The notes beneath the pieces are model-generated. The model was not told the DNA's origin, did not search any database, and saw only the letters and a program-made list of their open reading frames with translations. Made by a program: the position numbers and the translations under genes. Source: Riptortus pedestris (taxonomy: Eukaryota > Arthropoda > Insecta > Hemiptera > Alydidae). From it: a DNA stretch of 64,000 bases. Positions within the stretch are counted from its first letter, which is position 1. Every line of letters begins with the position of its first letter. Below are positions 5,101 to 52,785 of the stretch, piece by piece. The stretch covers positions 2,140,001-2,204,000 of the forward strand of contig JADPXZ010000007.1 in NCBI GenBank assembly GCA_019009955.1, given 5' to 3'.

Positions 5101-8160
<3,060 letters not shown>

Positions 8161-22170: not shown

Positions 22171-22640
22171 ATAAAAAAGTTGAAAACACCAAATAGAAAA
22201 GAGCACCCATTTTTAATTCACCATATTATTAATACTTTTGACCAATATATTAATTTGTTAGTAGAATAAATGTTATTATCTTTCATTTTAGCTTAGTTAA
22301 ACTATAAATATTCGAGTTACGACAAAAGTGCATATAACAACAATTGTAGAGCATCAATAGTTCAACAAGATTGGTTCTATAACATTTTACTCTCAGGCTC
22401 ATAATAACGGAGATATTTGGAATTTTTGTTATGAATAGCTAAAATAGAACAGGTCTCAGTAACTAACCCTGCGCAACACTTTATTAAAGAAAAACGCTAA
22501 TATCTCAGTTAATATGCATGATAGAGAAAAAGTGCATATAACAACAATTGTAGAGCATCAATAGTTCAACAAGATTGGTTCTATAAGATTTTACTCTCAG
22601 GCTCATAATAACGGAGATACTTACGAATAAAGTCAAAAAA
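22171..22640 (+). repeat. Two quasi-palindromic repeats, subfamily 1
   Basis: A left-truncated copy starts TACGACAAAAGTGCATATAAC (22318-22416), and a full copy lies at about 22498-22619. The truncated start shared with 35226, 40528 and (inverted) 44834 and 50092 suggests a defined alternative end. Confidence 0.85.
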
Positions 22641-30472: not shown

Positions 30473-31956
<1,484 letters not shown>

Positions 31957-32699: not shown

Positions 32700-32721
<22 letters not shown>

Positions 32722-32731
<10 letters not shown>

Positions 32732-33405: not shown

Positions 33406-33463
<58 letters not shown>

Positions 33464-33614: not shown

Positions 33615-33639
33615 CTGAAATATAACATTAAAAAACACT

Positions 33640-34145
33640 GTTAGTATTAAAGATAGAGAAAAAGTGCATATAACAACAATTGTAGAGCATCAATAGTTCA
33701 ACAAGATTGGTTCTATAACATTTTACTCTCAGACTCATAATAACGGAGATATTTGGAATTTTAGGAAAAATAAATAGATTAGGTCTGAGATGCTAAACAC
33801 TTTTTAAAAGAAAAACGCTAATATCTCGGTTAATATTTACTCTAGAGAAAAAGTGCATATAACAACAATTGTAGAGCATCAATAGTTCAACAAAATTGGT
33901 TCTATAACATTTTACTCTCAGACTCATAATAACGGAGATATTTTGTTATGAATAGCTAAAATAAAATAATTCGGAGATACTAACCTTGTGCAACATTTTA
34001 TTAAATGAAAACGCTAATATCTCGGTTACTATTTACTCTAGAGAAAAAGTGCATATAACAACAATTGTAGAGCATCAATAGTTCAACAAAATTGGTTCTA
34101 TAACATTTTACTCTCAGACTCATAATAACGGAGATATTTGGAATT
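33640..34145 (+). repeat. Quasi-palindromic repeat array, three forward copies
   Basis: Copies at about 33648-33755, 33817-33943 and 34015-34140. Each runs from AATATCTCGGTTAATATTT (missing in the first) to AATAACGGAGATATT. Spacers contain AGAAAAACGCTAATATC and short AT sequence. Confidence 0.92.
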
Positions 34146-34404
34146 TTTGCTCCTCGTACAAAGTTTACAATCGAACAAACATTATACCAACTGTTAGAGC
34201 TTAATTGTCACGCTCCGTTGGGCCTGTGAGGTCTATAATCATGATTTAGGTTTAAAATCCTTGGAAAATATGGCGGCTAATGACAGACGAGTGAACGGCC
34301 TTGGATAAAAAGAAGACGGGAAATGAAATACGTCCAGCACGCAGGGGCTGCGTGGACTAAGCAGATTTCCCACACGCAAAACCTATTTATTTTAGCTATT
34401 CACT
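34146..34404. other. Non-repetitive spacer between opposing arrays
   Basis: About 260 bp of balanced composition. It includes GGGCTGCGTGGACTAAGCAG near 34345, related to GGGCTGCGTAAATTGAGC at 13819 and GGGCTGCGTAAATAAAGC at 47949. No coding exon is recognised. Confidence 0.5.
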
Positions 34405-34905
34405 ACTATAATTCCAAATATCTCCGTTATTAAGAGTCTGAGAGTAAAATGTTATAGAACCAATCTTGTTGAACTATTGATGCTCTACAATTGTTGTTAT
34501 ATGCACTTTTTCTCTAGAGTAAATATTAACCGAGATATTAGCGTTTTTCCTTGTAAAGTAGTTTAAAGTGTTATTTTAGCTATTCATAACAAGAATTCCA
34601 AATATCTCCGTTATTATGAGCCTGAGAGTAAAATGTTATAGAACCAATCTTGTTGAAAAAGTAATGTTCTACAAATGTTGTTCTATACACTTTTTCTCTA
34701 TCGTAAATATTAACCGAGATATTATTATTTGTCGGAAATAATTACCGTCTTATTCCCTTAACAACTTCACTATGAGAAGCATTGGTATATATTTTGTTAA
34801 CTTCCAAATATCTCCGTTATTATGAGCCTGAGAGTAAAATGTTATAGAACCAATCTTGTTGAGCTATTGATGCTCTACAATTGTTGTTATATGCTCACTT
34901 TTTCG
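34405..34905 (-). repeat. Quasi-palindromic repeat array, three reverse copies
   Basis: Copies at about 34414-34540, 34598-34723 and 34805-34895 run from AAATATCTCCGTTATTA to CCGAGATATTA. With 33640-34145 they form a head-to-head arrangement around the spacer at 34146-34404. Confidence 0.9.
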
Positions 34906-35215
34906 GTAAAAAAAAAAAATATTAATTTTCACAAGGCCAAAAGTTATACCATACCTTCCGAGACTCAGCTATTGTTATATTACATATCGAGGACGTGGGA
35001 ATGGGAATATGAACCATTGTTCGCAATAAACAGAATAATTCATAGGGATATTACAATATTTTATTATTTATACACGATAAAAAGCCAATTTGGTTCTCAA
35101 TTAATTTTGTGGCTATGGGAAAAAAAATGTTGAGACTTTGAGACATGCAATCTCGAGATAAAACACTAAAATTACGGTTATGCAAAACAGGAAAAATTTA
35201 CCGATAACTCGCTTG
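34906..35215. other. Spacer without recognised feature
   Basis: About 300 bp of AT-rich sequence. Nothing coding recognised. Confidence 0.5.
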
Positions 35216-36295
35216 GTGTTAGACCTACGACGAAAGTGCATATAACAACAATTGTAGAGCATCAATAGTTCAACAAGATTGGTTCTATAACATTTTACTC
35301 TCAGGCTCATAATAACGGAGATATTTGGAATGTTAGCTAAAATAAATAGATTAGGTCTGAGATACTAACCTTCTGCAAGACTTTATTAAATAAAAACGCT
35401 AATATCTCGGTTAATATTTACTCTAGAGAAAAAGTGCATATAACAACAATTGTAGAGCATCAATAGTTCAACAAGATTGGTTCTATAACATTTTACTCTC
35501 AGACTCATAATAACGGAGATATTTGAAACTTTAGCTGAAATAAATAGATTAGGTCTGAGATAGTAACCTTGTGCAACACTTTATTAAAGAAAAACGCTAA
35601 TATCTCGGTTAATATTTACTCTAGAGAAAAAGTGCATATAACAACAATTGTAGAGCATCAATAGTTCAACAAGATTGGTTCTATAACATTTTACTCTCAG
35701 GCTCATAATAACGGAGATATTTGGAAGTTAACAAAATATATACCAACGCTTCTCATAGTGAAGTCGTTAAGGGAATAAGACGGTAATTATTTCCGACAAA
35801 TAACAATATCTCGGTTAATATTTACTCTAGAGAAAAAGTGCATATAACAACAATTGTAGAGCATCAATAGTTCAACAAGATTGGTTCTATAACATTTTAT
35901 ACCAACGCTTCTCATAGTGAAGTCGTTAAGGGAATAAGACGGTAATTATTTCCGACAAATAACAATATCTCGGTTAATATTTACTCTAGAGAAAAGGTGT
36001 ATAGAACAACATTTGTAGAACATTACTTTTTCTACAAGATTGGTTCTATAACATTTTACTCTCAGGCTCATAATAACGGAGATATTTGGAAGTTAACAAA
36101 ATATATACCAACGCTTCTCATAGTGAAGTCGTTAAGGGAATAAGACGGTAATTATTTCCGACAAATAACAATATCTCGGTTAATATTCACGATAGAGAAA
36201 AAGTGTATAGAACAACATTTGTAGAACATTACTTTTTCTACAAGATTGGTTCTATAACATTTTACTCTCAGGCTCATAATAACGGAGATATAAAG
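35216..36295 (+). repeat. Quasi-palindromic repeat array, six forward copies
   Basis: Copies start near 35226 (left-truncated), 35400, 35598, 35808 (right-truncated), 35967 and 36174. Two use a variant middle (GAACAACATTTGTAGAACAT). Linkers come in two kinds: one with TAGATTAGGTCTGAGATA, one with ACCAACGCTTCTCATAGTG. The array ends about 50 bp from the donor of the fusilli start exon. Confidence 0.92.
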
Positions 36296-36345
36296 AATTT
36301 TAGTTTCGTACCTCTACTAAATAACAACAAAATATATAACGTTAC

Positions 36346-36474
36346 CTGGTTCCTGTGTAGATCTATTAGTGCGTATCCTAGAAGGACGATGTCCGTCTCG
36401 TCCGACCCCAGTCCGGCCCCTTGGAGCCCAGAAGTCGCGACGAGAAAACAGCAAGCGGTCATCTTCTGTCATAT
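36346..36474 (-). CDS. fus: fusilli/ESRP start exon
   Basis: The acceptor is a T-rich run ending CAG at 36475. After 12 bases the frame opens at ATG 36462 and reads MTACCFLVATSGLQGAGLGS, DETDIVLLGYALIDLHRNQ, then CAG|GTAAC at 36346. It aligns end to end with the first 40 residues of vertebrate ESRP1/2 (MTASPDYLVVLFGxTAGxxG, LGSDExEIVLLVWKVID). An in-frame TGA three codons upstream supports this start. A second ATG at 36472, out of frame, lies just upstream. Acceptor sequence before a start exon implies a further 5' untranslated exon at higher coordinates. Confidence 0.93.
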
Positions 36475-36790
36475 CTGAAAAAAAAAGAAATGCCATGTTT
36501 GATAAAAATCAACAAAAAAAAAACAGGAAAGAGTGGGGGTAATGCAGAAGGAAGCGGAACTTAAAATGCGAATATCTCGGTTAATATTCGTTCTAGAGAA
36601 AAAATGTATATAACAATATTTATAGTAAATTTAATTTGCAATAAGATTGGTTATGTACAATTTTTCGATCCGACGCATAATAACGGAGATATTTGCGAAT
36701 GTATGAAATTCTCTACAGGTAAGATTTCAGCCATTAACGAACTTGATCTTTAGTTTTACATAGAACGTTTAAATATAGAGTTTGGTAATG
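36475..36790 (+). repeat. Quasi-palindromic repeat, subfamily 2, single copy
   Basis: A copy at about 36567-36694, with GAGTGGGGGTAATGC upstream. Nothing else recognised to 36790. Confidence 0.82.
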
Positions 36791-37985
36791 ATAAGATAAG
36801 AATTAGAGAGAGAGGGAGGGAGACAGAGAGAAGAGAGTGTGGGGGAGGAAGAGTGTGGGGGTAGAGAGAGGGGGAAGAGAGTGGGGGAGAGATAGTGAGA
36901 GTGGGAGGAGGGAGACTGAGAGAGGGGTAGGATAGAGTGAGGGGGAGAGAGAGAGGGGGAGAGGGAAGGATGGGAGAGATAGACAAGGAGAGAGAGGGGG
37001 TAGAGAGAGAGGGAAGAGAGTGAGAGACAGAGGGAAGGAGGGGAAGGGAGTGAGAGAGAAGGGAGGGGAGAAGAAGAGTGTGTGAGAGAGATAGTGAGAG
37101 TGGGAGGAGGGAGACTGAGAGAGGGGTAGGATAGAGTGAGGGGGAGAGGGAGGGATGGGAGTGATAGAGAGGGAGAGAGAGGGGGTAGAGAGAGAGGGAG
37201 AGACAGAGGGAAGGAGGGGAAGGGAGTGAGAGATAAGTGCGGCCATAAGAAGAGAGTGTGAGAGAGATAGTGAGAGTGGGAGGAGGTAGACTGAGAGAGG
37301 GCTAGGATAGAGTCAGGGGGAGAGGGAAGGATGGGAGTGATAGAGAGGGAGAGAGCGGGGGTAGAGAGAGAGAAGGAGAGACAGAGGGAAGGAGGGGAAG
37401 GGAGTGAGAGAGAAGGGAGGGAAGAAGGGATATAGAGTGAGAGAGATAGTGAGAGTGGGAGGAGGGAGACTGAGAGAGGGCTAGGATAGAGTGAGGGGGA
37501 GAAAGAGAGGGGGAGAGATGGGGTAGAGAGAGAGAGAGAAGAGAGTGAGAGACAGAGGGAAGGAGTGGAAGAGAGTGAGAGAGATAGTGAGAGTGGGAGG
37601 AGGGTGGATGAGAGAGGGGTAGGATAGAGTGAGGGGAGAGGGAGGGATGGGAGTGATAGAGAGGGAGAGAGCGGGGGTAGAGAGGGAGGGAGAGACAGAG
37701 GGAAGGAGGGGAAGGGAGTGAGAGAAGGGAGGGGAGAAGAGGAGTGTGTGAGAGATAGTGAGAGTGGGAGGCGGGAGAGTGAGAGAGGGCTAGGATAGAG
37801 GGCGGGGGAGAGAGAGGGTGAGAGAGCGGGATGGGAGTGATAGAGAGGGAGAGAGAGGGGGTAGAGAGGGTGATGAAGAGACAGAGGGAAGGAGTGGGAA
37901 GGAGTGCGGAGAAGGGAGGGAGAAGAGGAGTGTGGTGAGAGATATTGATAGTGGGAGGAGGAGGAGAGTGAGAGTGAGGGCTAGG
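36791..37985. repeat. Polypurine tandem repeat, units of ~180 bp
   Basis: The landmark GATAGTGAGAGTGGGAGGAG recurs near 36892, 37088, 37266, 37446, 37584, 37756 and 37940, each followed by GGATAGAGTGAGGGGGAGA-like sequence. Units vary in length. From about 37880 small irregularities increase. Confidence 0.9.
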
Positions 37986-39266
37986 ATTGTTCTATAACAT
38001 TTTTACTCTCATGCTCATAATAACGGAATATTTGGAAATAACAAAATAATATACCCAACCGATCTCATACTGAAGTCCGTTAATGAATAAGACGGTAATT
38101 ATTTCCGACAAATTAACAAAATCTCTCGTTAATATTTACTCTAGAGAAAAATGCAATAACAACATAGTAGAGCATCAATAGTTCAACAATCTTGGTTCTA
38201 AACATTTTACTCTCAGGCTCATAAAAACGGAAGAATTTGGTAAGTTAACAAAATATATACCACGCTCTCATAGTGAAGTCGTTAAGGGAAATAAGACGGT
38301 AATTAAATTCCGACAAATAACAAATATCTCGGTTAATATATTACTCTAAAGAAAAAAAGGTGTTCATATAACAACAATTGTAGAGCATCAATAGTTCAAC
38401 AAATGGTTCTATAACATTTTACTCTCGGGCTCATAAGTAACGGGAGTATTGGTAGTTAAAACCCAAAATTATACCAAAACGCTTCTCATACAGAAGTCGT
38501 TAAGGGAATAAGACGGTAAATATTTCCGACAAATAACAATATCTCGAGTTAATATTTACTCTAGAGAAAAAGTGCATATAACAACAATTGTAAGCATCAA
38601 TAGTTCAACAAGATTGGTTCTATAAATTTTACTCTCAGGCTCATTAATAACGGAGATATTTGGAAGATTTAACCAAAATATTATTACACAACGCCTTCTC
38701 ATAGTGAAGTCGTTTAAGGGAATAAGGAACGGTAATTATTTTCCGACAAATAACAATATCTCGGTTAATATTTACTCTAGAGAAAAAGTGCATATAACAA
38801 ATAATTGTTAGAGCATCAATATTTTCAACATGATTGGTCTATAAACATTTTACTCTCAGGCTCATAATAACGGAGATATTTGGATGTTTACAAAAATATT
38901 ACCAACGCTTTCATAGTGAAGTCGTTAAAGGTAATAGACGGTTAATTATTTCCGGCGAATAAAATATCTCGGTTAATATTTACTCTAGAGGAAAAAAGTG
39001 CATATAAACAATTGTATGAGCATCAATAGTTCAACAAGATTGGTTCTATAACATTTTACTCTCAGGCTCATAATAACGGAGATATTTGGAAGTTAACAAA
39101 ATATATACCAACGCTTCTCATAGTGAAGTCGTTAAGGGAATAAGACGGTAATTATTTCCGACAAATAACAATATCTCGGTTAATATTTACTCTAGAGAAA
39201 AAGTGCATATAACAACAATTGTAGAGCATCAATAGTTCAACAAGATTGGTTCTATAACATTTTACT
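37986..39266 (+). repeat. Quasi-palindromic repeat array, noisy forward copies
   Basis: About seven copies with the CTTCTCATAGTGAAGTCG linker. 37986-39010 has frequent one- to three-base insertions relative to the clean copies at 39011-39266 and elsewhere. The last copy is cut at ACATTTTACTG (39266), where non-repetitive sequence begins. Confidence 0.85.
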
Positions 39267-39415
39267 GTTCTTCTGTCCTTTGCTAGAGTGAGGGAGTGAG
39301 AGAGAGAGGTGAGCGCTGATCCGAGGAGCAGCAGGTGGGTACCCGTTACCTGTCGGGGGTCGCTGAACTCCAAGGCTCCCCGCTACTTTATCACTACCAT
39401 TCAACCCTCTCTCTC
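39267..39415. other. GC-balanced unique block, possible 5' untranslated exon
   Basis: About 110 bp (39310-39400) of balanced sequence between repeats. On the minus strand it contains CGACCCCCGACAG|GTAACG, a good donor. It lies 2.8 kb upstream of the fusilli start exon, which needs an upstream non-coding exon. Some frames are open but none is recognisable protein. Confidence 0.3.
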
Positions 39416-39507
39416 TCTCCCTCACTTTATCGCTCTGTCTCCCTCACATCCCTCTTTATCACTCACATCCCTCTCCCTCTCCCTCTCTCTCTGGAGAGAG
39501 AGAGAGA

Positions 39508-39553
<46 letters not shown>

Positions 39554-40240
39554 GAGGGAGGGAGGAAGAGAGAGAGGGAGGGAGAGAGGGAGAGAGAGAG
39601 GGGGAGAGATGTGAGGGTGACAGAGCGATAAAGTGAGGGAGAGAGAGAGGGAGAGATGTGAGGGTGACAGAGCGATAAAGTGAGGGATGGGAGGGAGTGA
39701 GAGAGAGGGAGGGATGTGAGGGAGAGAGAGCGATAAAGTGAGGGATGGGAGGGAGTGAGAGAGAGGGAGGGACGTGAGGAGAGAGAGCGATACAGTGAGG
39801 GATGGGGGAACGTGAGAATGGGAGGGATGGGGGGGTGAGTGAGTGAGTGAGGAGAGGAGTGAGAGAGACGATACAGGTGAGTGATGGGAGAGAGTGAGAG
39901 AGATGGGAGAAGATGAGAGGAGAGAGAGCGAAGAGTGAGAGAGATGGAGTGAGTGAGGAGAGAGAGAGGAGAGCGAGGAGAGGAAGAGACGAGGGGACGA
40001 AGAGAGATGAGAGAAGAGAGAGAGAGAGAGAGAGACCAGAGAGAGAGAGAGAGTTGATATGAGAGAGGGAGTGAGAGAGAAGAGAGAGAGAGAGAGAGAA
40101 GAGAGAGAGAGATGAGAGAAGTGTTGAGAAGTGAGAGAGAGAGAGAGAGGAGATGAGATAGAGGAAGGGTGAGGAGGTGAGAGAGAGATCGAGAGAGTGA
40201 GAGAGAGAGAGATCGACGATCGAGCTCGCTCTAGTGTGGC
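39416..40240. repeat. GA-rich polypurine tract
   Basis: A short CT-rich lead then GA repeats with ~60-bp imperfect units containing GAGCGATAAAGTGAGGGATG. Serine/leucine-rich minus frames here are artefacts. Confidence 0.92.
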
Positions 40241-40505
40241 TGTCCGGGGCTCTGTTGTTATCTCTCGCTCTCGCTCTCTCGTCTCTCTCTCCTCGATGAG
40301 AGAGAGACCACCCCAAGGCCTCTTAATCACAGCGTGTTTACGTAAAGAGAGAGAGATAGAGAACCTCGGCTAACCTTGTACCAAGTTAGCCACGCCGAAA
40401 TCTTTTTCCTTCTTAGCTCACCATCAATAAGAAATGAACTAGCCACTGGCTGGAAAAATTCATCAACAAATAACCACCGATCCTATCACCCAGATAACCA
40501 AGAGA
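40241..40505. other. Mixed sequence between repeats
   Basis: CT- and GA-rich at first, then about 190 bp of balanced composition (GAACCTCGGCTAACCTTGT onward). No coding exon recognised. Confidence 0.45.
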
Positions 40506-40850
40506 AACAGCAATAACTCTCTTAATATTCCATATACGACAAAATTGCATATAATAACAATTGTAGAGCATCAATAGTTCAACAAGATTGGTTCTATAAC
40601 ATTCTACTCTCAGGCTCATAATAACGGAGATATTTGGAATTTTTGTTATAGAATAGCTTAGGTCTGAGAAAATATAATTGTGCAACACTTTATTAAAGAA
40701 AAACGCAAATATCTCGGTTAATCTTTACTCTAGAGAAAAAGTGCATTATAAACAACAATTGTAGAGCATCAATTGTTCAACAAAAGATTGGTTCTAGAAC
40801 TTTTTACTCTCAGCTCGTCATAACGGAGATATTTGGGGCTTTTGTTATGA
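40506..40850 (+). repeat. Quasi-palindromic repeats, two forward copies
   Basis: A left-truncated copy at about 40528-40632 (start TACGACAAAATTGCATATAA) and a full, slightly noisy one at about 40708-40834. Confidence 0.85.
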
Positions 40851-41335
40851 CACGCAACGGTCATACTCACCTCACTAGAGTCCCCCCAAACAACCCCCCC
40901 CCTTCCTGGCTAAACACGACTTAACAAAAACCTACACTCGCAAAATTGAGTGCTAAAATCCCCCCCAATATTAGACGCTTACCTATAGTACTGACATAGC
41001 TACTATAACATTAGTTACATAGGCTACTAGAGTTGTAGTCCTTGGTGGCAATATTAGTCCTTCTCTTCTAGTAATCCATTCCATCAACAACTACTAGATC
41101 TACTACTACTAGCCAGAAACACCAAACTACTTCCAACACTCTCAGTACTACAAAATAGGGCCCACAAACGACCAACACAACACACCACCCAACCTCTCTC
41201 CACCACCACTCACACCTCCACCACTCCCGCCCCCCACCACCCCCCACATTGTACTATGACCCTCATACAATAGTCCTAAAGTTGTTACCTTGTGTACCAC
41301 CATAAATAAAACTACTTTTTAAAAAAGAATACGAA
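40851..41335. other. Unclassified C-rich and CTACTA-rich stretch
   Basis: About 480 bp with CCACC-rich segments and CTACTACTA repeats. Composition differs from both sides and the stretch lies in a low-quality region. No gene recognised. Confidence 0.45.
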
Positions 41336-41865
41336 ACACTCAATATCTACGGTTAATATTTACGATAGAGAAAAATTGCATATAACAACAATTGTAGAGC
41401 ATCAATAGTTCCTACAAGATTGGTTCTATAACATTTTACCTCTCAGACTACATAATAACCCCTTAGGAGATAATTACTGGAATTGTTGCCCATTGCGAAT
41501 GGGCTAAATAACATTAGTTCTGAGATGCTAACAATATTAAACCACACCACGTTAATATCTCGGTTAATATTTACTCTAGAGAAAAAATGTACCATATAAC
41601 CCCAACAATTGTAGAAAAAGCATCAATAGTTCAAAACAAGATTTTGGTTCTATTAATCATTTTAAACTTACTCAGGCTCATAATAACGGAGATATTTGGA
41701 ATGTTGTCGTGTAGCTATTTAGAGCCGCAATAGTTTTAATTGCCTTCGGGAAAGTTGGTAACTGGCATAATGTTTTGTGACGTGTTAAGATTAAGAAATT
41801 GGCGGGTGTTGGAGTGGGAAGGCGGGAAATATCAGCTGATTACTCTTAGCGCATTTCCCTTATAT
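41336..41865 (+). repeat. Two noisy quasi-palindromic repeats and spacer
   Basis: Copies at about 41342-41475 and 41551-41700 with many insertions (for example extra CCCC and AAAA). 41701-41865 is a spacer with TTAGCGCATTTCCCTTA at its right end, related to the AAGGGAAATCTGCTAAAA motif. Confidence 0.78.
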
Positions 41866-43333
41866 GTATATCTATATATATCTATATATATATAAAATTG
41901 TAACCTCTGTCTGTACATTGATTTTTTTCGTGAAATTTCACGATAACTTTTTCGTTTCACATGTCATAGACACCATAACTGCATTTTGTTTCTTTCGTGT
42001 ATGTTTGTTTGTTTGTTTGGTTACCTTTTTTACGCATAAACGGCTGCCTGAACCGAATTTTATGAAACTTGGTATGTATATTACAACTAACCCAACTTAG
42101 ACATTAAGGCTATATTAAAAATTCTCGGAGATGAACAGGAGTGGGGGTTTATAAGGGAGGCACTGAAATTAAAAATAAGCGATATTTCGTTTCCCCTATT
42201 GGGTTTTTCTCGGCAAATTATGAACATAACAAAAGTTGTTTATTTTGTTATTTAGAGTAACTTTGGTTATATAACATTTTTTTTCGTTATACCGAATATT
42301 TATAAACGAGATATACGCTAAAACCTTATAGCGGACAGTGAACAGTTTAAAATTTGACTCAAAAAGGACTCAACCAAACCTAAATAAAACTCGGTATGTG
42401 GTATTAGCACTAACAACTTCTTTATAATAATCCATACCAACAATTTCTGAGGGGACGGGCAGGAGTGGGGGTTGTAGGAGAGGCCTGAATATTTAAAAAA
42501 TAGGGCTGTATATTCGTTTTCAATAGGCGTTTTCTTCAAATATGCACATGGCCAAACAGTAGTTGTATTTTTCTATTTAAAGTAACACTTTTGTTATATT
42601 CACTTTATGTCGTATAGAAAAGTAAAAACGTGATATACACTAAAATCTTAAAGCGGGAGCCAACCAATTTTGTTGGGCACTAAACGATTTGAACCGAAAT
42701 CTTAGCAAATACTCGGTATGTCAATTAGCATTAATTCCTTCCACGAATTATAAAGCTATATTAAAAATTTTTAGGTCCAAACGGGAAGTGGGGATTATAA
42801 AAAGAGGCATGAAAAAGCGAGAAGTCTAATGCTCGGGAGCGGAAGATGGACGGGGAGCCTTATACAGTTAATTGAGTTTACATTATTTCCCGTCTGGCAT
42901 TGCTGGAAGTGGATGTTCCAGTGAGATTCACTAATACAAATATAATCTTACGTGCAAAACTTTGGGCCTAAACTATTTGAGCGCGGGTTGGCTTTTGAAT
43001 AAGAAAATATATGATATTTAATTGTAATAAATGCTACCCATGATTATTGAGTTTTGAGTTATTTGTAAAAAAAACGGTGAGTCATTAAAGTTGTAGTAGA
43101 AGGATTAATTAGGAACAGATTTTCATTTAATCCTTCCAAAACTAATAAATTTTCTATTCTATTAAACACCAAAACTTACTCTTCAGGGTTAGGCTATTTT
43201 CGGAAAATTATTTGCTTCGTGGGTGGAGGGAAGTTGTAATTGTACACATTGAAAAAAGTCTTACATATCAAAATACCATCATTAGTAGCAGTCAACAATA
43301 ATTTCCCGGGCATCGCCGGGTATCTTGAGCTAG
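41866..43333 (+). mobile_element. Helitron-like element, long copy
   Basis: After CTATATATATATA it starts AAAATTGTAACCTCTGTC and keeps the order leader, central repeats, unique 3' part, then CCCGGGCATCGCCGGG, TATCTTGAG and CTAG (43330-43333) followed by T. The hairpin stem is conserved while its loop differs from other copies. The central part (to about 42800) is insertion-rich, the 3' part is clean. Confidence 0.65.
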
Positions 43334-43404
<71 letters not shown>

Positions 43405-43555
43405 ATAAACTGAATGTTTTCTTATTCGTTTATATTTGCGCTCTCTAGCGAATTTATTCATTAGACGAAATATATAAATTGTTGTTTCCCACCAAAAGTA
43501 TGGCTTCACATTTCCCGCGTAACCTAGCGGTTTACAACATGATTCTCTTCAAATA
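43334..43555. repeat. TA microsatellite and short spacer
   Basis: TA run to about 43400 directly after the Helitron-like end, then about 150 bp unclassified. Confidence 0.85.
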
Positions 43556-44850
43556 ATCCCAAATATCTCCGTTATTATGAGCCTGAGAGTAAAATGTTAT
43601 AGAACCAATCTTGTTGGAACTATTGATGCTCTACAATTGTTGTTAAATGCCTTTTTTCTTTGAGCGTAAATATTAACCAAGATATTAGCGTTTTTCTTTA
43701 AAAAAGTGTTCGCACAAGGTTACTATAAGGGGTACTCAGGCATTAAGCTATTTGTGTCAAAAAAAATTTCAAATATCTCCGTTATTATGAGCCTGAGAGT
43801 AAAATGTTATAGAACCAATCTTGTTGAACTATTGATGCTCTACAATTGTTGTTATATGCACTTTTTCTCTAGAGTAAATATTAACCGAGATATTAGCGTT
43901 TTTCTTTAATAAAGCATTGCACAAGGTTAGTATCTCAGCCCTAAGGTATTTGTGTCAAAAATTCCAAATATCTCCGTTATTATGAGCCTGAGAGTAAAAT
44001 GTTATAGAACCAATCTTGTTGAACTATTGATGCTCTACAATTGTTGTTATATGCACTTTTTCTCTAGAGTAAATATTAACCGAGATATTAGCGTTTTTCT
44101 TTAAAAAAGTGTTGCACAAGGTTACTATCTCAGGCTTAAGCTATTTGTGTCAAAAATTCCAAATATCTCCGTTATTATGAGCCTGAGAGTAAAATGTTAT
44201 AGAACCAATCTTGTTGAACTATTGATGCTCTACAATTGTTGTTATATGCACTTTTTCTCTAGAGTAAATATTAACAGAGATATTAGCGTTTTTCTTTAAA
44301 AAAGTGTTGCACAAGGTTACTATCTCAGGCTTAAGCTATTTGTGTCAAAAATTCCAAATATCTCCGTTATTATGAGCCTGAGAGTAAAATGTTATAGAAC
44401 CAATCTTGTTGACCTATTTATGCTCTACAATTGTTGTTATATGCACTTTTTCTCTAGAGTAAATATTAACCGAGATATTAGCGTTTTTCTTTAATAAAGT
44501 GTTGCACAAGGTTCGCATCTCAGACCTATATTATTTTAGCTATTTATAACAAAAATTCCAAATATCTCCGTTATTATGAGCCTGAGAGTAAAATGTTATA
44601 GAACCAATCTTGTTGAACTATTGATGCTCTACAATTGTTGTTATATGCACTTTTTCTCTAGAGTAAATATTAACCGAGATATTAGCAATTTTCCTAAAAA
44701 GTAGTTTAAAGTGTTATTTTAGCTATTTATAACAAAATGATCAAATATCTCCGTTATTATGAGCCTGAGAGTAAAATGTTATAGAACCAATCTTGTTGAA
44801 CTATTGATGCTCTACAATTGTTGTTATATGCACTTTTATCGCAACTCGAT
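43556..44850 (-). repeat. Quasi-palindromic repeat array, seven reverse copies
   Basis: AAATATCTCCGTTATTATG starts at about 43561, 43771, 43966, 44161, 44356, 44560 and 44743, so the main spacing is 195 bp. The central units share a linker with CTATCTCAGGCTTAAGC. The last is truncated at GCACTTTTATCGCAACTCG. Confidence 0.95.
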
Positions 44851-45145
44851 TATTAAGCGGGTTATAGTCATTTCTGCTCAGAAATATTCTCTGATCTAGA
44901 TAAAAAAAAAAAATCCCGCACTAATACGCAGGGATATTTATAATGTCTAGAGAGAGAGAGAGAGAGGTATACAAGTCAACGACCCACCGAAACTAAACCA
45001 GTTTTTGAATACCACTTTCTAAAAGCTGCGTCTGTGAATGTTTAGAATAATATGCAGTAGCTAAGCCCCCTTCGGAAATACCCAGGCCAAAATGTCTGCT
45101 AACAACAATGGCTTCATTAAAACTAATACATATTCTCTATTTATA
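44851..45145. other. Spacer without recognised gene
   Basis: Balanced stretch at about 44985-45130 including AAAATGTCTGCTAACAACAA. A short plus frame follows that ATG but resembles nothing known. Confidence 0.4.
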
Positions 45146-45775
45146 GGTCATTATCTCGGTTAATATTAGCGATAGAGAAAAAGTGCATATAACAACAATT
45201 GTAGAGCATCAATAGTTCAACAAGATTGGTTCTATAACATTTTACTCTCAGGCTCATAATAACGGAGATATTTGGAATTTTTGTTAAGAATAGCTAAAAT
45301 ATTAAGCTTGTGCAACACTTTATTAAAGAAAAACGCTAATATCTCGGTTAATATTTACTCTAGAGAAAAAGTGCATATAACAACAATTGTAGAGCATCAA
45401 TAGTTCAACAAGATTGGTTCTATAACATTTTACTCTCAGGCTCATAATAACGGAGATATTTGGAATTTTTGTTACGAATAGCTTAGGTCTGAGATACTAA
45501 CCTTGTGGAACACATTATTAAAGAAAAACGCTAATATCTCGGTTAATATTTACGATAGAGAAAAAGTGCATATAACAACAATTGTAGAGCATCAATAGTT
45601 CAACAAGATTGGTTCTATAACATTTTACTCTCAGGCTCATAATAACGGAGATATTTGGACCAATAGCTTAGGACTGAGATACCAGCCTTGTGCAACACTT
45701 TATTAAAGAAAAACGCTAATATCTCGGTTAATATTTACTCTAGAGAAAAAGTGCATATACAACAATTGTAGAGAA
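45146..45775 (+). repeat. Quasi-palindromic repeat array, four forward copies
   Basis: Copies near 45150, 45338, 45532 and 45717, the last cut after GCATATACAACAATTGTAG. Linkers contain TTGTGCAACACTTTATTAAA and AGGTCTGAGATAC. Confidence 0.93.
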
Positions 45776-45915
45776 ACAACTCAGGGTTAAAATGTATTCG
45801 TTAGAGTCATCGCACATCAATAGTGAGAGAGAGATTTCTACCTTCGAGGTCGGCTTGAATATTAAACCCATGAGAAAATATTAAGATACACGTGGAACGT
45901 TAACTCATAACAAAG
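45776..45915. other. Short unclassified spacer
   Basis: No feature recognised. Confidence 0.4.
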
Positions 45916-46892
45916 TAAATATATAAAATTGCTACCTCTGTCTGTACATTGATTTTTTTCGCGAAATTTCACGATAACTTTTCGTTTTACATGTCATAGG
46001 ACACCATAACTGCATTTTGTTTGTTTTGTGTCTGTTTGTTTGTTTGTTTGTTACCTTTTCACGCATAAACGGCTGAACCGAATTTTATGAAACTTGGTAT
46101 GTATATTACTACTGACCCAACTTAGACTTTAGGCTATACTAATATTCTCTGAGACGAACAGGAGTGGGAGTTTATAAGGGATGCCTGAAATTAAAAATAG
46201 CGATAGTTCGTTTCCTATTGGTTTTTCAGCAAATATGAACATAATAAAAGTTGTTTATTTTGTTATGTAGAGTAACTTTTGTTATATACACTTTTATAAT
46301 TACAATTATAAACGAGATATACGCTAAAACCTATAGCGGAAGTGAACAATTTTATTTGGGACAAAAGACCCAACCGAATTAAATAAAACTCGGTATGAAA
46401 ATTAGCACTAATGCTTTCATTATAATAAGCCATACCAACATTTCTAGGGACAGGCAGGAGTGGGGGTTGTAAGGGAGGCCTGAAATTAATAATAGCGATA
46501 TTTCGTTTCCTATTGCATTTTCGGCAAATATGCACATAACAAAAGTTGTTTATTTTGTTATTTAGAGAAATTTGCTCAACACTTCTTTTCAATATGAACT
46601 ACCAGGTACCTCACCTGAAAAAATTAATTCAAATGTATGTCAATATTTTCTCGTTAATAGCTGAAATCTATGCATAAGGCACAGGAGACGGGAAATATGA
46701 CAATTTGGACGACAGTGAAGTCTTACGTAAAAAATTAATTTTATTATTAACAAATCCCAACGACGGGTATTAACCCTAAACACTGGGACGGGTAAATGTC
46801 AAAATATTGTGCAAAGTAAAGCCTTGCCAAAAATATACCATCACCATTCAGCCTCAAATCAATTCCCGGGCGAAGCCGGCTATCTCAGCTAG
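45916..46892 (+). mobile_element. Helitron-like element
   Basis: Starts ATATAAAATTGCTACCTC, with CGCATAAACGGCTGAACCG and two central repeats; ends CCCGGGCGAAGCCGG, CTATCTCAG, CTAG (46889-46892), T. This copy is clean and close to the 5101 and 32722 copies. Confidence 0.68.
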
Positions 46893-47129
46893 TATATATA
46901 TATACTGCCAGCACTCCACTACATAATATGTTGTACACGATTTTTAAAAATCGTCGAGAATTATTTGAGCTACGCGCGTTATCAGCTGGTTTCACTGATA
47001 TCTCTTATCACTCCTTATCTAATTTACTACGACAGAAGTGATTTTTTTTATAGTAACAGGTATGAAAATATGTCGCTGTCTCTCTCTTCAATATTGACGT
47101 GATGTTGACTCGATTTTAGCGGATTTCCC
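46893..47129. other. Unclassified spacer
   Basis: About 230 bp, non-repetitive, ending TTTAGCGGATTTCCCTTAAGG, the inverted form of the AAGGGAAATCTGCTAAAA boundary motif. Confidence 0.5.
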
Positions 47130-47800
47130 TTAAGGAGATATTTGGAAATTTTGTTACGAATAGCTAAAATAGATTAGTTCTGAGATAGTAACCTTGTGCA
47201 ACACTTTATTGAAAGAAAAAGGCTAATATCTCGGTTAATATTTACTCTAGAGAAAAAGTGCATATAACAACAATTGTAGAGCATTAATAGTTCAACAAGA
47301 TTGGTTCTATAACATTTTACTCTCAGGCTCATAATAACGGAGATATTTGGCAAAAAACAAAATATATACGCAACGTTTCCTTAGCGAAGTCGTTAAGGGA
47401 ATAAGACGAAATTATTTCGACAATAACAAATCTCGGGTTAATATTTACTCCTAGAAAAAAGAGTGCAATAAAACAACAATTGTAGTGCATCAATATTCAA
47501 CAGATTGGTTCTATAACAATTTACTCTCAGCAGGCTCATAATAAACGGAGATAATTTGGAATTTTTTTGGTTTACGAAAACAGCTAAAATAGATCAGTTT
47601 CGCTGGATACTAACCTTGTACAGGACTTTTAACAGAAAACGCTAATTATCAGGGGGGTCAACGGTTAATAATTCCGATAGAGGTAAAAAGTTTGCATATA
47701 ACAAAAATTTGTAGAGGCGATTCAATAGTTCAACAAGATTGGTTCTATAACATTTTACTCTCAGGCTCATAATAACGGAGATATTTGGAATTATAGCTAA
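47130..47800 (+). repeat. Quasi-palindromic repeats, forward, partly noisy
   Basis: A clean copy at about 47226-47346, noisy copies at about 47430-47555 and 47640-47785. Confidence 0.82.
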
Positions 47801-48210
47801 AGCGGAAGTACCTGACCTTAACAATTGTATTTATAACATGACCTTAATTGTAAGCTGAGTAAATATTATTCCGATACTCAATGGAATCTGACACGAAGGC
47901 ATTTATACTCAGTTTCATTCAAAACGGGAAGAAGAGTATGTGACTCAAGGGCTGCGTAAATAAAGCATATTTCGCAGCGTGAAGTTCTGAACGATAGATA
48001 AATCTACAAACTGCTAAACACTCAACACGACCGCAGCAATATTACAGCGAATAAATACATGATGCTAATGAGAAATATTTCAATAATAAAGGTCTCTTGA
48101 AAACAATATTTGGTATTTAAGCTTGGAATAATGCGGTTTATTATATAACAGAGTATTGTTTATGCGACACGAGCAGGAGTGGGGCTTTGCTCGAGGATGA
48201 AAACTGAAAA
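47801..48210. other. Spacer with GGGCTGCGTAAA motif
   Basis: Contains GGGCTGCGTAAATAAAGC at 47949. From about 48105 there is a segment shared with 8660-8755 (GCGGTTTATTATATAACAGA, GCGACACGAGCAGGAGTGGG). Confidence 0.6.
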
Positions 48211-48735
48211 ATGCAAATATCTCGGTTAATATTCATTCTAGAGAATAAATGTATATAACAATATTTATAGTAAATTTAATTTGCAATAAGATTGGTTATG
48301 TACAACTTTTCGATCCGACGCACAATAACGGAGATAATTCGATTCTTGTCTCAAGAAGGACTTCATCAATATTTTTCACAGTTGCTACCAGTTGATTTTC
48401 GACCTAAAAACGCTAATATCTCGGTTATTATTCATTCTAGAGAATAAATGTATATAACAATATTTATAGTAAATTAAATTTGCAATAAGATTGGTTATGT
48501 ACAATTTTTCGATCCGGCAAATAACAACGGAGATATTTCGATTCTTGTCTCAAGAAGGACTTCACCGATATCTTGAAAGTAGCTACCAAGTTGATTTTCG
48601 ACAGAAAAATGCAAATATCTCGGTTAATATTCAAGATAGAGAATAAATGTATATAACAATATTTATAGTAAATTTAATTTGCAATAAGATTGGTTATGTA
48701 CAATTTTTCGATCCGACGCATAATAACGGAGATAT
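48211..48735 (+). repeat. Quasi-palindromic repeat array, subfamily 2, three copies
   Basis: Copies near 48216-48334, 48413-48536 and 48610-48733 with TTTAATTTGCAATAAGATTG and CGATCCGACGCATAATAACG. The linker of the first two includes TCTTGTCTCAAGAAGGACTT. Spacing is about 197 bp, close to the spacing of subfamily 1 arrays. Confidence 0.93.
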
Positions 48736-48835
48736 ATGAATAATTTTGAAAGGAACTCAATTTCGTCAACTCGTGTTTATGGTCGATGGACTTTAATGGA
48801 ATTTTTCATTTAAGAGAAATCTGCTAATACCCAAA

Positions 48836-48903
<68 letters not shown>

Positions 48904-49085
48904 ATAGCTTCAAGTATTCTTGCTGAAATGATAAGACGTTTCTGAGTGTAAGTTATCTTACTGATATCAAAGCTACAGAATGGATTAAAGTACACTTAGG
49001 ATTAGTACATTCAAACTCAGGTTTATATCAAACAATAATATTCTGCCTTAAATCTTTCTTGGTTAGCGAGTTATAAGTGTTATTA
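48736..49085. other. TA microsatellite and unclassified spacer
   Basis: AAGAGAAATCTGCTAATACC at 48813 precedes a TA run (48840-48900). The rest is AT-rich with no recognised feature. Confidence 0.6.
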
Positions 49086-49605
49086 AATCGGTTAATATTT
49101 ACTCTAGAGAAAAAGTGCATATAACAACAATTGTAGAGCATCAATAGTTCAACAAGATTGGTTCTATAACATTTTACTCTCAGGCTCATAATAACGGAGA
49201 TATTTGGAATTTTGGAACAACAGTCCTAAAGTGTTACCTTGTGCAACACCTTAAACTACTTTTTTTTAAAGAAAAACGCTAATATCTCGGTTAATATTTA
49301 CTCTAGAGAAAAAGTGCATATAACAACAATTGTAGAGCATCAATAGTTCAACAAGATTGGTTCTATAACATTTTACTCTCAGGCTCATAATAACGGAGAT
49401 ATTTGGAATTTTGGAACAACAGTCCTAAAGTGTTACCTTGTGCAACACCTTAAACTACTTTTTTTTAAAGAAAAACGCTAATATCTCGGTTAATATTTAC
49501 TCTAGAGAAAAAGTGCATATAACAACAATTGTAGAGCATCAATAGTTCAACAAGATTGGTTCTATAACATTTTACTCTCAGGCTCATAATAACGGAGATA
49601 TTTGA
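49086..49605 (+). repeat. Quasi-palindromic repeat array with perfect 199-bp duplication
   Basis: Three copies (about 49087, 49281 and 49480). The unit from TTGGAACAACAGTCC through the next repeat appears twice without visible change at a 199-bp offset, so the array expanded very recently. Confidence 0.95.
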
Positions 49606-49898
49606 AACTTTCGTTACGAATCGCAAAATAGATTAGAATATAATTAATTATTTTTAGGAAACCGCTGTTATTTATTTATGAACAGCTTAAAATTTAGGAG
49701 TATTCCTAATATCACCAGAAGTCTAAAGTAGTTTTAAAGTATCTTTAGTCTTGCCCTGAAGAAGAAAAAATATATAATTCTCCAAATATAGGCATCAACT
49801 AAAATTTGTTCACTAACATTGACAAAAACTCCAAGAAACAATAATAGGTTATATATTAATATAACCTGGTCAAAAACATCAACAGAATTATATATATA
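49606..49898. other. AT-rich spacer
   Basis: No gene or repeat recognised. Confidence 0.5.
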
Positions 49899-50110
49899 CT
49901 AGCTGAGATAGCTGGCTTCGCCCGGGAATTGATTTGAGGCTGAATGGTGATGGTATTTTTTTGGCAAGGCTTTACTTTGCACAATATTTTGACATTTACC
50001 CGTCCCAGTGTTTAGGGTTAATACCCGTCGTTGGCATTTGTTAATAATAAAATTAATTTTTTATGTAAGTCTTCACTGTCGTCCAAATTGTCATATGCAC
50101 TTTTGTCGTA
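49899..50110 (-). mobile_element. Helitron-like 3' end, reverse orientation
   Basis: Begins ACTAGCTGAGATAGCTGG and CTTCGCCCGGGAATTG, the inverted 3' end, and runs about 190 bp into the body. It then joins TATGCACTTTTGTCGTAGC, the shared inner boundary of truncated quasi-palindromic repeats. Confidence 0.7.
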
Positions 50111-50840
50111 GCTACAATATTAAGCCAGTTAAATTCTGGAATTCCCGCTAAAATCCCCAATTTGATGGCGCCCCTTTTGTAAAACCAAGCGTCAGTTTTA
50201 TTGCGGGCCTTTACCTGTCGGCGGCTACAACAAGCTTTATTCTGCGTATATGTCTCTGTATAAATATTAAAGAAAAACGCTAATATCTCGGTTAATATTT
50301 GTGATAGAGAAAAAGTGCATATAACAACAATTGTAGAGCATCATAGTTTTCCAAACAAGAAAAATTGGTTTTCCTAATAACATTTTACAGTTGGCATATA
50401 ACAACCCATTTTAAAAGAGCATCCAAATAGTTTCCAAACAAGAATTTGGTTTCTACTATAACAATAAACATTTTACTCCTTCTCAGGGACCTCATAATAA
50501 AACGGAGATATTATGCGGAATTTATACTTTTTGTGTTTGTTTTTCCCCAGATTTGGAAAAACAAAATAAAAATAATTTCCTTTCCCATTTATTTTGAAAG
50601 AGTTTTCCACAAACTAAAATTGGAAGGACGTATTTATTTTGTTTTGAGCCGCTTTGCAAAAGAGCCGGGGAAAATTTAATTATCGGACAGTAAAATTCTT
50701 TTTTTATTACCTCTTTATTTCCCTTTTGCTTCCAAGTCAATAAATACTTCGCTCGGTTTTTTATATTCCTTAAAACTTGGAATAAATTTCCCAAGTTCAT
50801 CCTTAGTTATATGTATAAAATTGCAGATTTAAATCATTAA
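50111..50840. repeat. Unclassified spacer and one noisy quasi-palindromic copy
   Basis: 50111-50270 is non-repetitive. A very noisy forward copy spans about 50282-50515. 50516-50840 is AT-rich with no recognised gene; the two opposed small frames there resemble nothing. Confidence 0.55.
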
Positions 50841-52340
50841 TATTCTCAGTTATTATGAGCCTGAGAGTAAAATGTTATAGAACCAATCTTGTTGAACTAT
50901 TGATGCTCTACAATTGTTGTTATATGCACTTTTTCTCTAGAGTAAATATTAACCGAGATATTAGCGTTTTTCTTTAAAAAAAGTAGTTTAAGGTGTTGTA
51001 ACACTATAGCTATTATTTCAAAATTCCAAATATCTCCGTTATTATGAGCCTGAGAGTAAAATGTTATAGAACCAATCTTGTTGAACTATTGATGCTCTAC
51101 AATTGTTGTTATATGCACTTTTTCTCTAGAGTAAATATTAACCGAGATATTAGCGTTTTTCCTTGTAAAGTAGTTTAAAGTGTTATTTTAGCTATTCATA
51201 ACAAAAATTCCAAATATCTCCGTTATTATGAGCCTGAGAGTAAAATGTTATAGAACCAATCTTGTTGAACTATTGATGCTCTACAATTGTTGTTATATGC
51301 ACTTTTTCTCTAGAGTAAATATTAACCGAGATATTAGCGTTTTTCTTTAAAAAAGCGTTCCAGTAGCTTAGTATCTGAGACCTAATCTATTTATTTCAGC
51401 TAACATTCCAAATATCTCCGTTATTATGAGCCTGAGAGTAAAATGTTATAGAACCAATCTTGTCGAACTATTGATGCTCTACAATTGTTGTTATATGCAC
51501 TTTTTCTCTATCGTAAATATTAACCGAGATATTAGCGTTTTTCTTTAAAAAAGCGTTCCAGTAGCTTAGTATCTGAGACCTAATCTATTTATTTCAGCTA
51601 ACATTCCAAATATCTCCGTTATTATGAGCCTGAGAGTAAAATGTTATAGAACCAATCTTGTTGAACTATTGATGCTCTACAATTGTTGTTATATGCACTT
51701 TTTCTCTAGAGTAAATATTAACCGAGATATTAGCGTTTTTCTTTAAAAAAGCGTTCCAGTAGCTTAGTATCTGAGACCTAATCTATTTATTTCAGCTAAC
51801 ATTCCAAATATCTCCGTTATTATGAGCCTGAGAGTAAAATGTTATAGAACCAATCTTGTTGAACTATTGATGTTCTACAATTGTTGTTATATGCACTTTT
51901 TCTCTAGAGTAAATATTAACCGAGATATTAGCGTTTTTCTATAAAAAAGCGTTCCAGTAGCTTAGTATCTGAGACCTAATCTATTTATTTCAGCTAACAT
52001 TCCAAATATCTCCGTTATTATGAGCCTGAGAGTAAAATGTTATAGAACCAATCTTGTCGAACTATTGATGCTCTACAATTGTTGTTATATGCACTTTTTC
52101 TCTATCGTAAATATTAACCGAGATATTAGCGTTTTTCTTTAATAAAGTGTTCCACTTGGTTAGTATCTGAGACCTAATCTATTTATTTCAGCTAACATTC
52201 CAAATATCTCCGTTATTATGAGCCTGAGAGTAAAATGTTATAGAACCAATCTTGTTGAACTATTGATGCTCTACAATTGTTGTTATATGCACTTTTTCTC
52301 TAGAGTAAATATTAACCGAGATATTAGCGTTTTTATTTAA
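50841..52340 (-). repeat. Quasi-palindromic repeat array, eight reverse copies
   Basis: Copies begin near 50845, 51027, 51213, 51410, 51605, 51803, 52001 and 52197. The last five share a linker with GTAGCTTAGTATCTGAGACC and CTATTTATTTCAGC, giving a uniform 195-198 bp unit. Confidence 0.96.
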
Positions 52341-52785
52341 TTTAACGAGTTGCACAAGGTAAGTATTTCAGACCTATTCTATTTTAGCTAATCATAACAA
52401 AAAATTTAAAATATGTGAAGGATTTTAATGTTTGAAATTTCAATCAAGAAATAAATAATAATAATAATAAAACATAAACATTATTAATATAATAAATGAA
52501 AGAAAATAAAATAAATTGATTTGTACAATCACTCATTAATTAAGTAGATTGATTCAATCAAAGTTAGTTAGATAACAGTGTGATTACAGCTGTGATTGAA
52601 TATGATTGAATTCGGTAAATCAATAATAATTGCTAATCAAGCCTTCTGATTAAGATTGACTTCTATTCCGAACTAACAAAATGATATTAGCGTTTTATGA
52701 AGTAACTAATCCTGGGACTAAAAAATTTTGATTGAAAGATTTTGGAAAAAAAGTCTGTGGTTACCGTTTTTTTTGTTGAGATATT
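52341..52785. other. AT-rich lead into the GATTGAA satellite
   Basis: Simple AAT repeats and scattered TTGATTG words; no gene. Confidence 0.55.

Follow-up and report, generated by a model that had tools for sequence, protein, structure and literature searches.

A stretch of Riptortus pedestris DNA (assembly GCA_019009955.1, contig JADPXZ010000007.1, positions 2,140,001 to 2,204,000 of the forward strand; 64,000 nt, hereafter the window) carries many copies of a repeat that pairs with itself, and the question it raises is whether the self-pairing persists because the folded form matters, as a first-pass annotation suggested, or for some other reason. The repeats are a real, somewhat unusual family: a single self-complementary core of about 123 bases adjoins several spacers that are unrelated, and it recurs within a transposon-like element. 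A profile search located 74 core loci in the window, among them every copy listed in the first-pass annotation, whose forward unit is called S1 here and whose subfamilies 2 and 3 are called S2 and S3. S4 is a subfamily added in the follow-up, and S1f is the consensus of four array-first units. The search profile turned symmetric during iteration, and its matches on both strands are not counted as evidence of symmetry. Copies of S1 are spread over 33637-52327 in homogenised arrays of head-to-tail tandem units, with intact units of 184 to 206 bp (n = 18). The arrays and single cores, with edges read by eye and approximate, are as follows.

8519..8894, + strand: S2 pair, spacer C containing GGAGTGGGG; cores 8519-8645 and 8767-8894
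14434..14560, + strand: single S2 core
19698..19836, + strand: core that, by eye, is S2 in its left half and flank and S1 in its right half; indel-rich patch
20365..20703, + strand: S1 copies split by a B spacer
22308..22622, + strand: S1 array opening with a left arm of S1f type
31474..31874, + strand: S3 pair, spacer E; copies 31474-31569 and 31685-31813
33637..34144, + strand: S1 tandem array, three cores, spacer A
34414..34911, - strand: S1/S1b tandem array in opposite orientation, with one spacer of A type and one B
35202..36291, + strand: S1/S1b array, A and B spacers; left arm of first unit diverged (S1f)
36569..36696, + strand: single S2 core
37983..39268, + strand: S1 array, B spacers, indel-rich copies
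40495..41699, + strand: S1 copies, partly indel-rich; the one at 40512 comes first and has a diverged left arm (S1f)
43559..44865, - strand: S1 array, seven cores
45151..45778, + strand: S1 array opposite 43559-44865, final core truncated
43963-44328 with 45294-45659: inverted pair, 366 nt, 95%
47133..47788, + strand: S1 copies, partly indel-rich, with A spacers and, by eye, B spacers
48105..48737, + strand: S2 array in which spacer C (by eye) is followed by D; S2 copies 48213-48737
49082..49640, + strand: S1 array, three cores
50844..52410, - strand: S1 array, eight cores

The core measures 123 bp in each subfamily, as do 72 of the 86 strand-wise matches that include both ends. Among S1-type copies, this length is found in 33 of 40 outside indel-rich patches (the other seven measure 75, 86, 117, 119, 124, 124 and 125) and in 1 of 14 inside them. 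The six 123-bp subfamily cores align without gaps, and S4, with bounds placed at its matching motifs, is 56 to 59% identical to the other subfamilies at register 0, as against 24 to 40% at twelve other registers tried. S4 lies 54 substitutions from S1, and the length of 123 has held through about 43% divergence. Two single S4 copies are 123 bp long and one is 120; a fourth, measured as 105 from a false end match, aligns gap-free to a 123-bp copy. Forward and reverse identities of S4 to the other subfamilies are about equal, and both orientations were run in the pairing tests. The left arm of S3 is slightly closer to S2 and its right arm to S1, small differences from which S3 may be judged a recombinant.

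The 123 bp correspond to 41 codons, with hardly any stops in frame 0 of either strand (0 to 2 per subfamily for the two strands together, a count that 0 to 12 shuffles in 500 matched, the subfamilies being related and not independent), a pattern that would suit a former peptide repeat. Such a coding relic is barely credible: differences are not enriched at third positions (13, 10 and 5 by codon position for S1 versus S2), four peptides matched no Pfam family over the cut-off, and one reading frame gave no protein candidate. Nor did the repeat match any RNA family at gathering score, or a bacterial-code scan find a tRNA. No relatives appeared in viral and prokaryotic contig collections, a result that says little about other animals; four collection stretches, one viral and three from genome_contigs, scored 10 to 25 against the cores in the inner alignment, below the 33 to 47 found between S4 and the other subfamilies, and 11 further viral-collection stretches were judged unrelated by eye.

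The whole unit had been described as an imperfect palindrome. This description fits the 123-bp core, but the symmetry stops short of the spacers, all 18 of which proved non-palindromic when tested; about 10 further bases on either side of the core also pair in part. The terminal inverted repeats are as claimed (15 of 18 end bases pair), and these mirror-image ends are among the best-conserved parts of the core. The flanks immediately outside it (GAAAAATGC, TGGAATTTT) are also common to the subfamilies (by eye). When each consensus with 14-base flanks (for S3, the single full copy) was compared with its own reverse complement, the palindromy score was matched by none of 500 dinucleotide shuffles for S1, S1b, S2 and S4, by 1 for S3, and by 22 for S1f. 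The RNA folds of the S1, S1b, S2 and S4 consensuses (z = -3.6, -5.3, -4.4 and -4.7) were likewise reached by 0 of 200 shuffles each. The hairpin-capable element proposed earlier is real, and so is the retained self-pairing. The RNA fold of S3 (z = -1.1) is no better than shuffled (29 of 200 shuffles reach it), and the fold of S1f (z = -1.1) was reached by 22 of 200. As DNA, S3 folds somewhat better than shuffles (3 of 200).

Taken singly, 48 of the 63 copies that reach 110 bp exceed the best of 30 shuffles: 37 of 47 of S1 type, 3 of 3 S1b, 7 of 7 S2, the one S3 copy, and, as trimmed for that test, 0 of 5 S4. The lowest folding energy of the 63 belongs to the S2 core at 36569-36696 (RNA of 36561-36705, -46.3 kcal/mol). 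As RNA, both strands fold better than shuffles (z = -3.9 and -2.3 for S1; -7.5 and -4.3 for S2 at 36561-36705), and facing arrays form inverted pairs of 317 to 366 nt with 92 to 96% identity. Both observations would suit a source of hairpin small RNA, in which the transcribed core, with its imperfect 61-base arms, or the facing arrays would yield diced double-stranded RNA. We regard this role as very unlikely: G-T and A-C mismatches (respectively 2 and 4 in S1, 1 and 1 in S1b, 4 and 1 in S2, 0 and 4 in S3, 3 and 4 in S1f) indicate no consistent strand preference, and for individual copies of S4 and S1f the gain in folding over shuffles is slight or nil.

Across the 54 substitutions between S4 and S1, the number of Watson-Crick pairs remains at 38 of 61, versus 20.7 expected under random placement of substitutions, but this null was set aside as too easy, conserved mirror positions alone yielding the signal, and was replaced by a comparison of own with swapped arms. 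Arms pair at 38 of 61 positions within S1 and 43 within S2, and at 37 for the S1 left arm with the S2 right and 36 for the S2 left with the S1 right. Pairing across subfamilies nearly equals pairing within them because the two arms are anciently related, and shared ancestry of the core's halves can account for most of the self-pairing. Own arms pair slightly above swapped arms for S1/S1b, S2 and S4, but not for S3.

Only two-sided changes can show upkeep of pairing. S1 and S2 differ by five such changes, three of which are compensatory (P = 0.03), and the excess recurs for S1b versus S4 (P = 0.01; 0.02 with S4 flipped), for S2 versus S4 (P = 0.02; 0.06 flipped) and, more weakly, for S1 versus S4 (P = 0.07; 0.08 flipped). 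It is lacking between S1 and S1b, and absent or negative in comparisons with S3. The idea that the folded form matters keeps the modest two-sided excess in S1/S1b, S2 and S4 but is a weak step given the near equality of swapped arms and the behaviour of S3; selection on the fold is only partly supported. One rival is an ordinary old palindrome, the arms of an inverted duplication since decayed, whose leftover pairing is functionless and whose cores are alike through recent copying. The near equality of own and swapped arms agrees with it, as does the persistence of S3 and S1f with weaker pairing (35 and 34 of 61), whereas the compensatory excess and a length retained across so much divergence do not, and we consider it possible but doubtful.

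Also at odds with an old palindrome, units resemble one another more closely in the core than in the spacer that goes with it. In a comparison without length or end filter, which took all 54 S1-type loci, 38 of them with a following spacer, and excluded 20 S2-, S3- or S4-type or mixed loci, core identity exceeded spacer identity in 658 of 703 unit pairs and was lower in 42. Over these pairs, identity was 0.952 with 5.9% gap columns in the core and 0.810 with 22.3% gap columns in the spacer. The core was also more alike in 417 of 435 pairs outside indel-rich patches, in 287 of 300 pairs with A spacers only, and in 144 of 153 pairs of a filtered set of 38 of the 74 loci, picked for 123 bases and matching ends, so that their uniform length and freedom from indels do not count as a finding.

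At least four mutually unrelated spacer kinds (A, B, D and a C/E/F group) lie beside the core in the window. Representatives of A, B and D, one each, are unrelated to each other or to C, E and F (every alignment was reached by at least 11 of 300 shuffles), and no relation emerged between the S1 spacers and that of the S4 unit when alignments were set against shuffles. The spacers of S2, S3 and S4 have a common stretch with GGAGTGGGG, and the C-F and C-E alignments were reached by 0 of 300 shuffles. The core at 20578-20700, with a B spacer at its left, is identical at 123 of 123 positions to that at 35401-35523, which has A spacers. Identical cores beside unrelated spacers, together with the lack of any palindromic spacer among those tested, indicate that the core acts as an exchange module, although similar cores would also be expected from selection or from the recent spread of one core variant. 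A further, unlikely reading makes the palindrome itself the unit of spread, protein-free and with a fixed length and mirror symmetry, copied into unrelated spacers and a mobile carrier by hairpin-driven strand exchange with core replacing core; its symmetry would then persist because symmetric copies alone exchange well.

The S4 cores sit in a dispersed, non-coding element of about 1 kb, represented in the window by the following copies.

1..904, + strand: second copy, 5' part lost at window edge, indel-rich
5101..6173, + strand: element with two S4 cores (5372-5494 and 5670-5792), units 298 bp apart, 3' CTAG then T
32722..33407, + strand: third copy, internal deletion, one partial S4 core
41884..42814, + strand: fourth copy (5' part), indel-rich
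45916..46904, + strand: fifth copy, with S4 cores at about 46202-46320 and, partial, 46497-46563
49889..50096, - strand: element 3' end alone, fused (by eye) to an S1f-type left arm
63502..63930, + strand: related stretch, 75% to the element, S4-type core 63544-63664

Canonical Helitrons end in 3' CTRR, with a hairpin of 16 to 20 nt about 11 bp before this end, begin with 5' TC, and insert between A and T without duplication, according to the portions available of PMC4038834 and PMC4067079. As in Lep1 and canonical Helitrons described there, the element ends in CTAG (5 of 5 aligned copies) followed by T (5 of 5, though both sides are often TA repeats); a sixth, more distant 3' end did not align cleanly. 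Unlike them, it has no shared 5' TC start, the four aligned 5' ends reading ATATATAAAATTG, and it carries repeated units with a palindromic core. Its 3' hairpin is weak, a CCGG...CCGG-type stem of 4 to 5 bp spanning 14 to 16 nt in four of five copies and absent in the fifth, and its stability does not exceed that of shuffles (for the five copies, between 32 and 158 of 200 shuffles fold at least as well). By these termini, the element would be Helitron-like only in part.

The first-pass annotation had also offered a foldback transposon remnant. Were the whole core a pair of terminal inverted repeats moved by a transposase, as in a MITE, the spacers would be old insertion sites amplified along with it, consistent with the well-conserved mirror-image ends and with unrelated spacers adjoining one core. 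At 14 elements, however, no target-site duplication rose above chance (longest shared words of 4 to 7 bp, which 26 or more of 300 random pairs equalled, with approximate edges), and the flanks immediately outside the core are, by eye, common to the subfamilies, making transposition of this kind quite improbable.

The reading that we favor, at about an even chance, is that these are satellite-like tandem arrays sharing a homogenised 123-bp imperfect palindrome with a dispersed element, through carriage followed by exchange at the core. An element of rolling-circle type would first have spread copies through the genome, and the free arrays (S1, S2 and S3) would then have been enlarged by unequal exchange. 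The core would be a preferred DNA-level site of strand exchange or template switching, by way of a single-stranded hairpin or cruciform, and exchange at the palindrome would keep cores alike while letting them swap spacers. Constraint on two arm motifs that mirror each other (aATatcTC..TTa.taT with AtA.AAC.A), a putative symmetric protein site, might contribute as well. Against this reading, no array was found between complete element ends in the 64-kb window, and the spacers of S1 and of the S4 unit look unrelated; the missing 5' TC, the weak 3' hairpin and the poor folding of single S4 copies also count against it.

Several known repeats share parts of this arrangement, compared here with the available portions of each source. 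The oyster repeats Cg_HINE and Cg170/HindIII are Helentron-borne and satellite-like; as here, they form short dispersed arrays in rolling-circle elements, with monomers mostly of 140 to 180 bp and element-linked spread, but their palindrome is part of the element's 3' end and not of the monomer (PMC7492417), whereas here the monomer core is palindromic and its spacers are unrelated. In the clam satellite phBglII400, array junctions fall at palindromes of 12 and 10 bp (PMC5139131), which is comparable to the exchange proposed here, where the location of junctions is a proposal only. Long inverted segments also occur within the monomers of the insect satellite TmSat2 of Tribolium madens, whose arrays run in both orientations, and of the T. 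brevicornis and Trichogramma brassicae satellites cited with it; those segments span 80 to 470 bp in monomers of 385 to 1061 bp, and the T. madens arrays occupy putative (peri)centromeric megabase regions (PMC13081366), in contrast to a 123-bp core in short dispersed arrays. The grasshopper satellites LmiSat02-176 and OdeSat17-176 likewise have Helitron homology, although the portion of PMC8822648 available describes no whole-core palindrome. 'Unknown 6' of Calliphora vicina, compared by description only, is a dispersed insect repeat, palindromic over 465 of 488 bp and first flagged as a Helitron fragment; it is longer, and its halves are 92% identical (PMC3630058). Among the papers listed in a literature search, no title or abstract opening described the same arrangement; judged by title, none of the 20 listed of 56 papers containing a 9-base string, and none of three containing a 12- to 13-base string, deals with a repeat of this kind.

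Satellite-like repeats linked to rolling-circle transposons are already known, and why parts of them stay alike is an open question. The homogenised part of this family has a defined length and mirror symmetry, so that the palindrome can be cleanly tested as the place where junctions and conversion tracts start and stop.

A profile search of the window recovered 74 repeat loci, their orientation set by a one-strand model, with copies present at the places where the first-pass annotation had reported repeats. Intact units of subfamily S1, each an imperfectly palindromic core plus a spacer, are 184 to 206 bp long (n = 18). Opposed S1 arrays adjoin and face each other at 34414-36291, 43559-45778 and 49082-52410, the first two giving inverted pairs of 317 nt and 366 nt, respectively. 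Copies at 1-910, 19698-20500, 37983-39200, 40700-42800, 47430-47800 and 50280-50500 carry many insertions of 1 to 3 bases, and their neighbors are clean; these indel-rich patches may reflect a poorly polished assembly rather than decay. In character the window seems to be animal DNA. Microsatellites are abundant, a mariner-like element whose ends are inverted and whose transposase reading frames are broken is visible by eye at about 1170-3500 (one typed piece had no Pfam match), and the best Pfam match of a gene start near 61.4 kb is NAD-dependent epimerase, which we take to be UDP-glucose 4-epimerase. Other features of the window are as follows.

9580-12236: 23.5 tandem copies of a 112-bp unit, at 97%
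29253-29711, minus strand: putative exon
29973-30471: array of the 16-mer CCCCCCCACCCCCCCC, 499 bp at 100%
about 58800-59350: array of the same 16-mer, seen in translations only

The 16-mer arrays may be an assembly artifact. The exon is probable and presumably resembles ESRP/fusilli splicing factors, and the piece tried against Pfam had no match.

The core varies little in length. Trimmed to AATATCTCGG...GGAGATATT, the S1, S1b and S2 consensuses are each 123 bp, as are the single full S3 copy, the consensus of four first units of arrays with a diverged left arm (S1f), and the consensus of S4, a group added here and bounded instead at its matching motifs. All six align with one another without gaps. 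At register 0, S4 has 69 to 73 of 123 bases in common with the other subfamilies (shuffle mean, 37 to 39; maximum, 59 in 5,000), as against 24 to 40% identity at twelve alternative registers. Among individual S1-type loci, 33 of 40 outside the indel-rich patches measure 123 bp (the remaining seven, 75 to 125 bp), compared with 1 of 14 inside them, and the three readable S4 copies measure 123, 123 and 120 bp. In each of the six subfamilies, frame 0 has 0 to 2 stops over the two strands together (matched by 0 to 12 of 500 shuffles), but despite this near absence of stops, its substitutions show no coding-like pattern.

Copies are most alike in the core. In an unfiltered alignment to it of the full set of 54 S1-type loci, the 38 followed by a spacer gave 703 pairs with an identity of 0.952 in the core (5.9% gap columns) and 0.810 in the spacer (22.3% gap columns), the core being higher in 658 pairs, lower in 42 and equal in 3. 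The core also exceeded the spacer in 417 of 435 pairs outside indel-rich patches, in 287 of 300 with A spacers alone, and in 144 of 153 in a filtered set. Moreover, the core at 20578, with a B spacer on its left, is identical (123/123) to that at 35401, which has an A spacer. Because cores are more alike than spacers and identical cores lie beside both A and B, it is the core rather than the whole unit that is kept alike. With one representative per spacer type, A, B and D (the last from an S2 array) showed no relation to each other or to the spacers of S2 (C), S3 (E) and S4 (F), which have a stretch with GGAGTGGGG in common; the scores of C against E and against F were each matched by 0 of 300 shuffles, and that of E against F by 28 of 300 forward and 2 of 300 reversed.

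S4 cores occur in units 298 bp apart within a dispersed element that is clearest at 5101-6173. Further copies or parts of this element are as follows.

1-910
32716-33424
41884-42814
45916-46904
49889-50096
63502-63930

The 5' ends of four copies and the 3' ends of five could be aligned and compared with the Helitron end definitions in parts of PMC4038834 and PMC4067079. The 3' ends read CTAG, as expected of a Helitron, and a T follows them; the 3' hairpin is doubtful, with a 4- to 5-bp stem possible in the GC-rich stretch of 4 of 5 copies at a stability not above that of shuffles, and the 5' TC is absent from the four aligned 5' ends. At 49889-50140 (minus strand), the element's 3' end appears by eye to be joined without a gap to a left arm of S1f type, possibly an old link between element and arrays.

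That the repeat is palindromic, as first proposed, holds up well. Watson-Crick pairs number 38 in S1, 42 in S1b, 43 in S2, 35 in S3, 34 in S1f and 38 in S4, out of 61, and sliding one arm by 1 to 5 bases leaves only 12 to 26. The self-match was equaled by 0 of 500 dinucleotide shuffles in S1, S1b, S2 and S4, by 1 in S3 and by 22 in S1f. RNA folding gave z scores of -3.64 for S1, -5.34 for S1b, -4.41 for S2, -4.68 for S4, -1.08 for S3 and -1.12 for S1f, and DNA folding of six copies gave -1.3 to -5.8. Single copies surpassed the best of 30 shuffles in 48 of 63 cases, and in 0 of 5 for S4 as trimmed in that test. None of 18 spacers was palindromic; in 200 shuffles, each spacer's score was matched 64 times or more.

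The further proposal, that pairing kept through divergence means that the folded form matters, is only partly supported. The paired state is retained far above random placement of substitutions, except from S1 to S1f and from S1b to S1, and pairing among changed pairs exceeds shuffled values in most comparisons whose end point is S1, S2 or S4 (S2 to S1 is an exception) and never when it is S3. Both tests are generous, since conserved positions are common to both arms. In a fairer test, each left arm was paired with its own right arm or with that of another subfamily, and its own paired slightly better. Sign-flip P values, from mutually dependent comparisons, were 0.03 for S1/S2 and S1b/S2, and (S4 flipped in parentheses) 0.01 (0.02) for S1b/S4, 0.02 (0.06) for S2/S4 and 0.07 (0.08) for S1/S4. 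There was no such excess between S1 and S1b (P = 1.0) or between S3 and S1 (0.63), S1b (0.75), S4 (0.49; 0.50 flipped) or S2 (1.0). An alignment of 24 sequences (22 distinct), composed solely of S1, S1b, S2 and S3 copies, agrees with the slight own-arm advantage; in it, 3 of 31 pairs have two-sided changes, every one in the inner helix, and nearly all come from S2 copies.

There are hints that S3 is a recombinant, as its left arm is closest to S2 (77%, versus 75% for S1b and 70% for S1) and its right arm most resembles S1 and S1b (82%, versus 77% for S2). By eye, 19698-19836, within an indel-rich patch, has a left half of S2 type and a right half of S1 type. At core positions 21 to 23, TCTAGAG and GATAGAG variants are both present in S1 and in S2, a polymorphism that could stem from exchange between subfamilies.

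The family thus combines a symmetric core of steady length with changing spacers, and a dispersed element also has the core. Most likely, rolling-circle transposition would carry core copies, arrays would then grow, and core would replace core through exchange, for which hairpins in single-stranded DNA are the likely trigger; the palindrome is a putative starting point of that exchange. Within a single window, homogenization, selection and recent spread are indistinguishable in appearance. Several of these features have published precedents: satellites can ride in rolling-circle elements (PMC7492417), array junctions can fall in palindromes (PMC5139131), and long dyads lie inside insect satellites (PMC13081366). 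Transposon-linked satellite-like repeats are a known kind, within which what is new in this family is its palindromic core of steady length.
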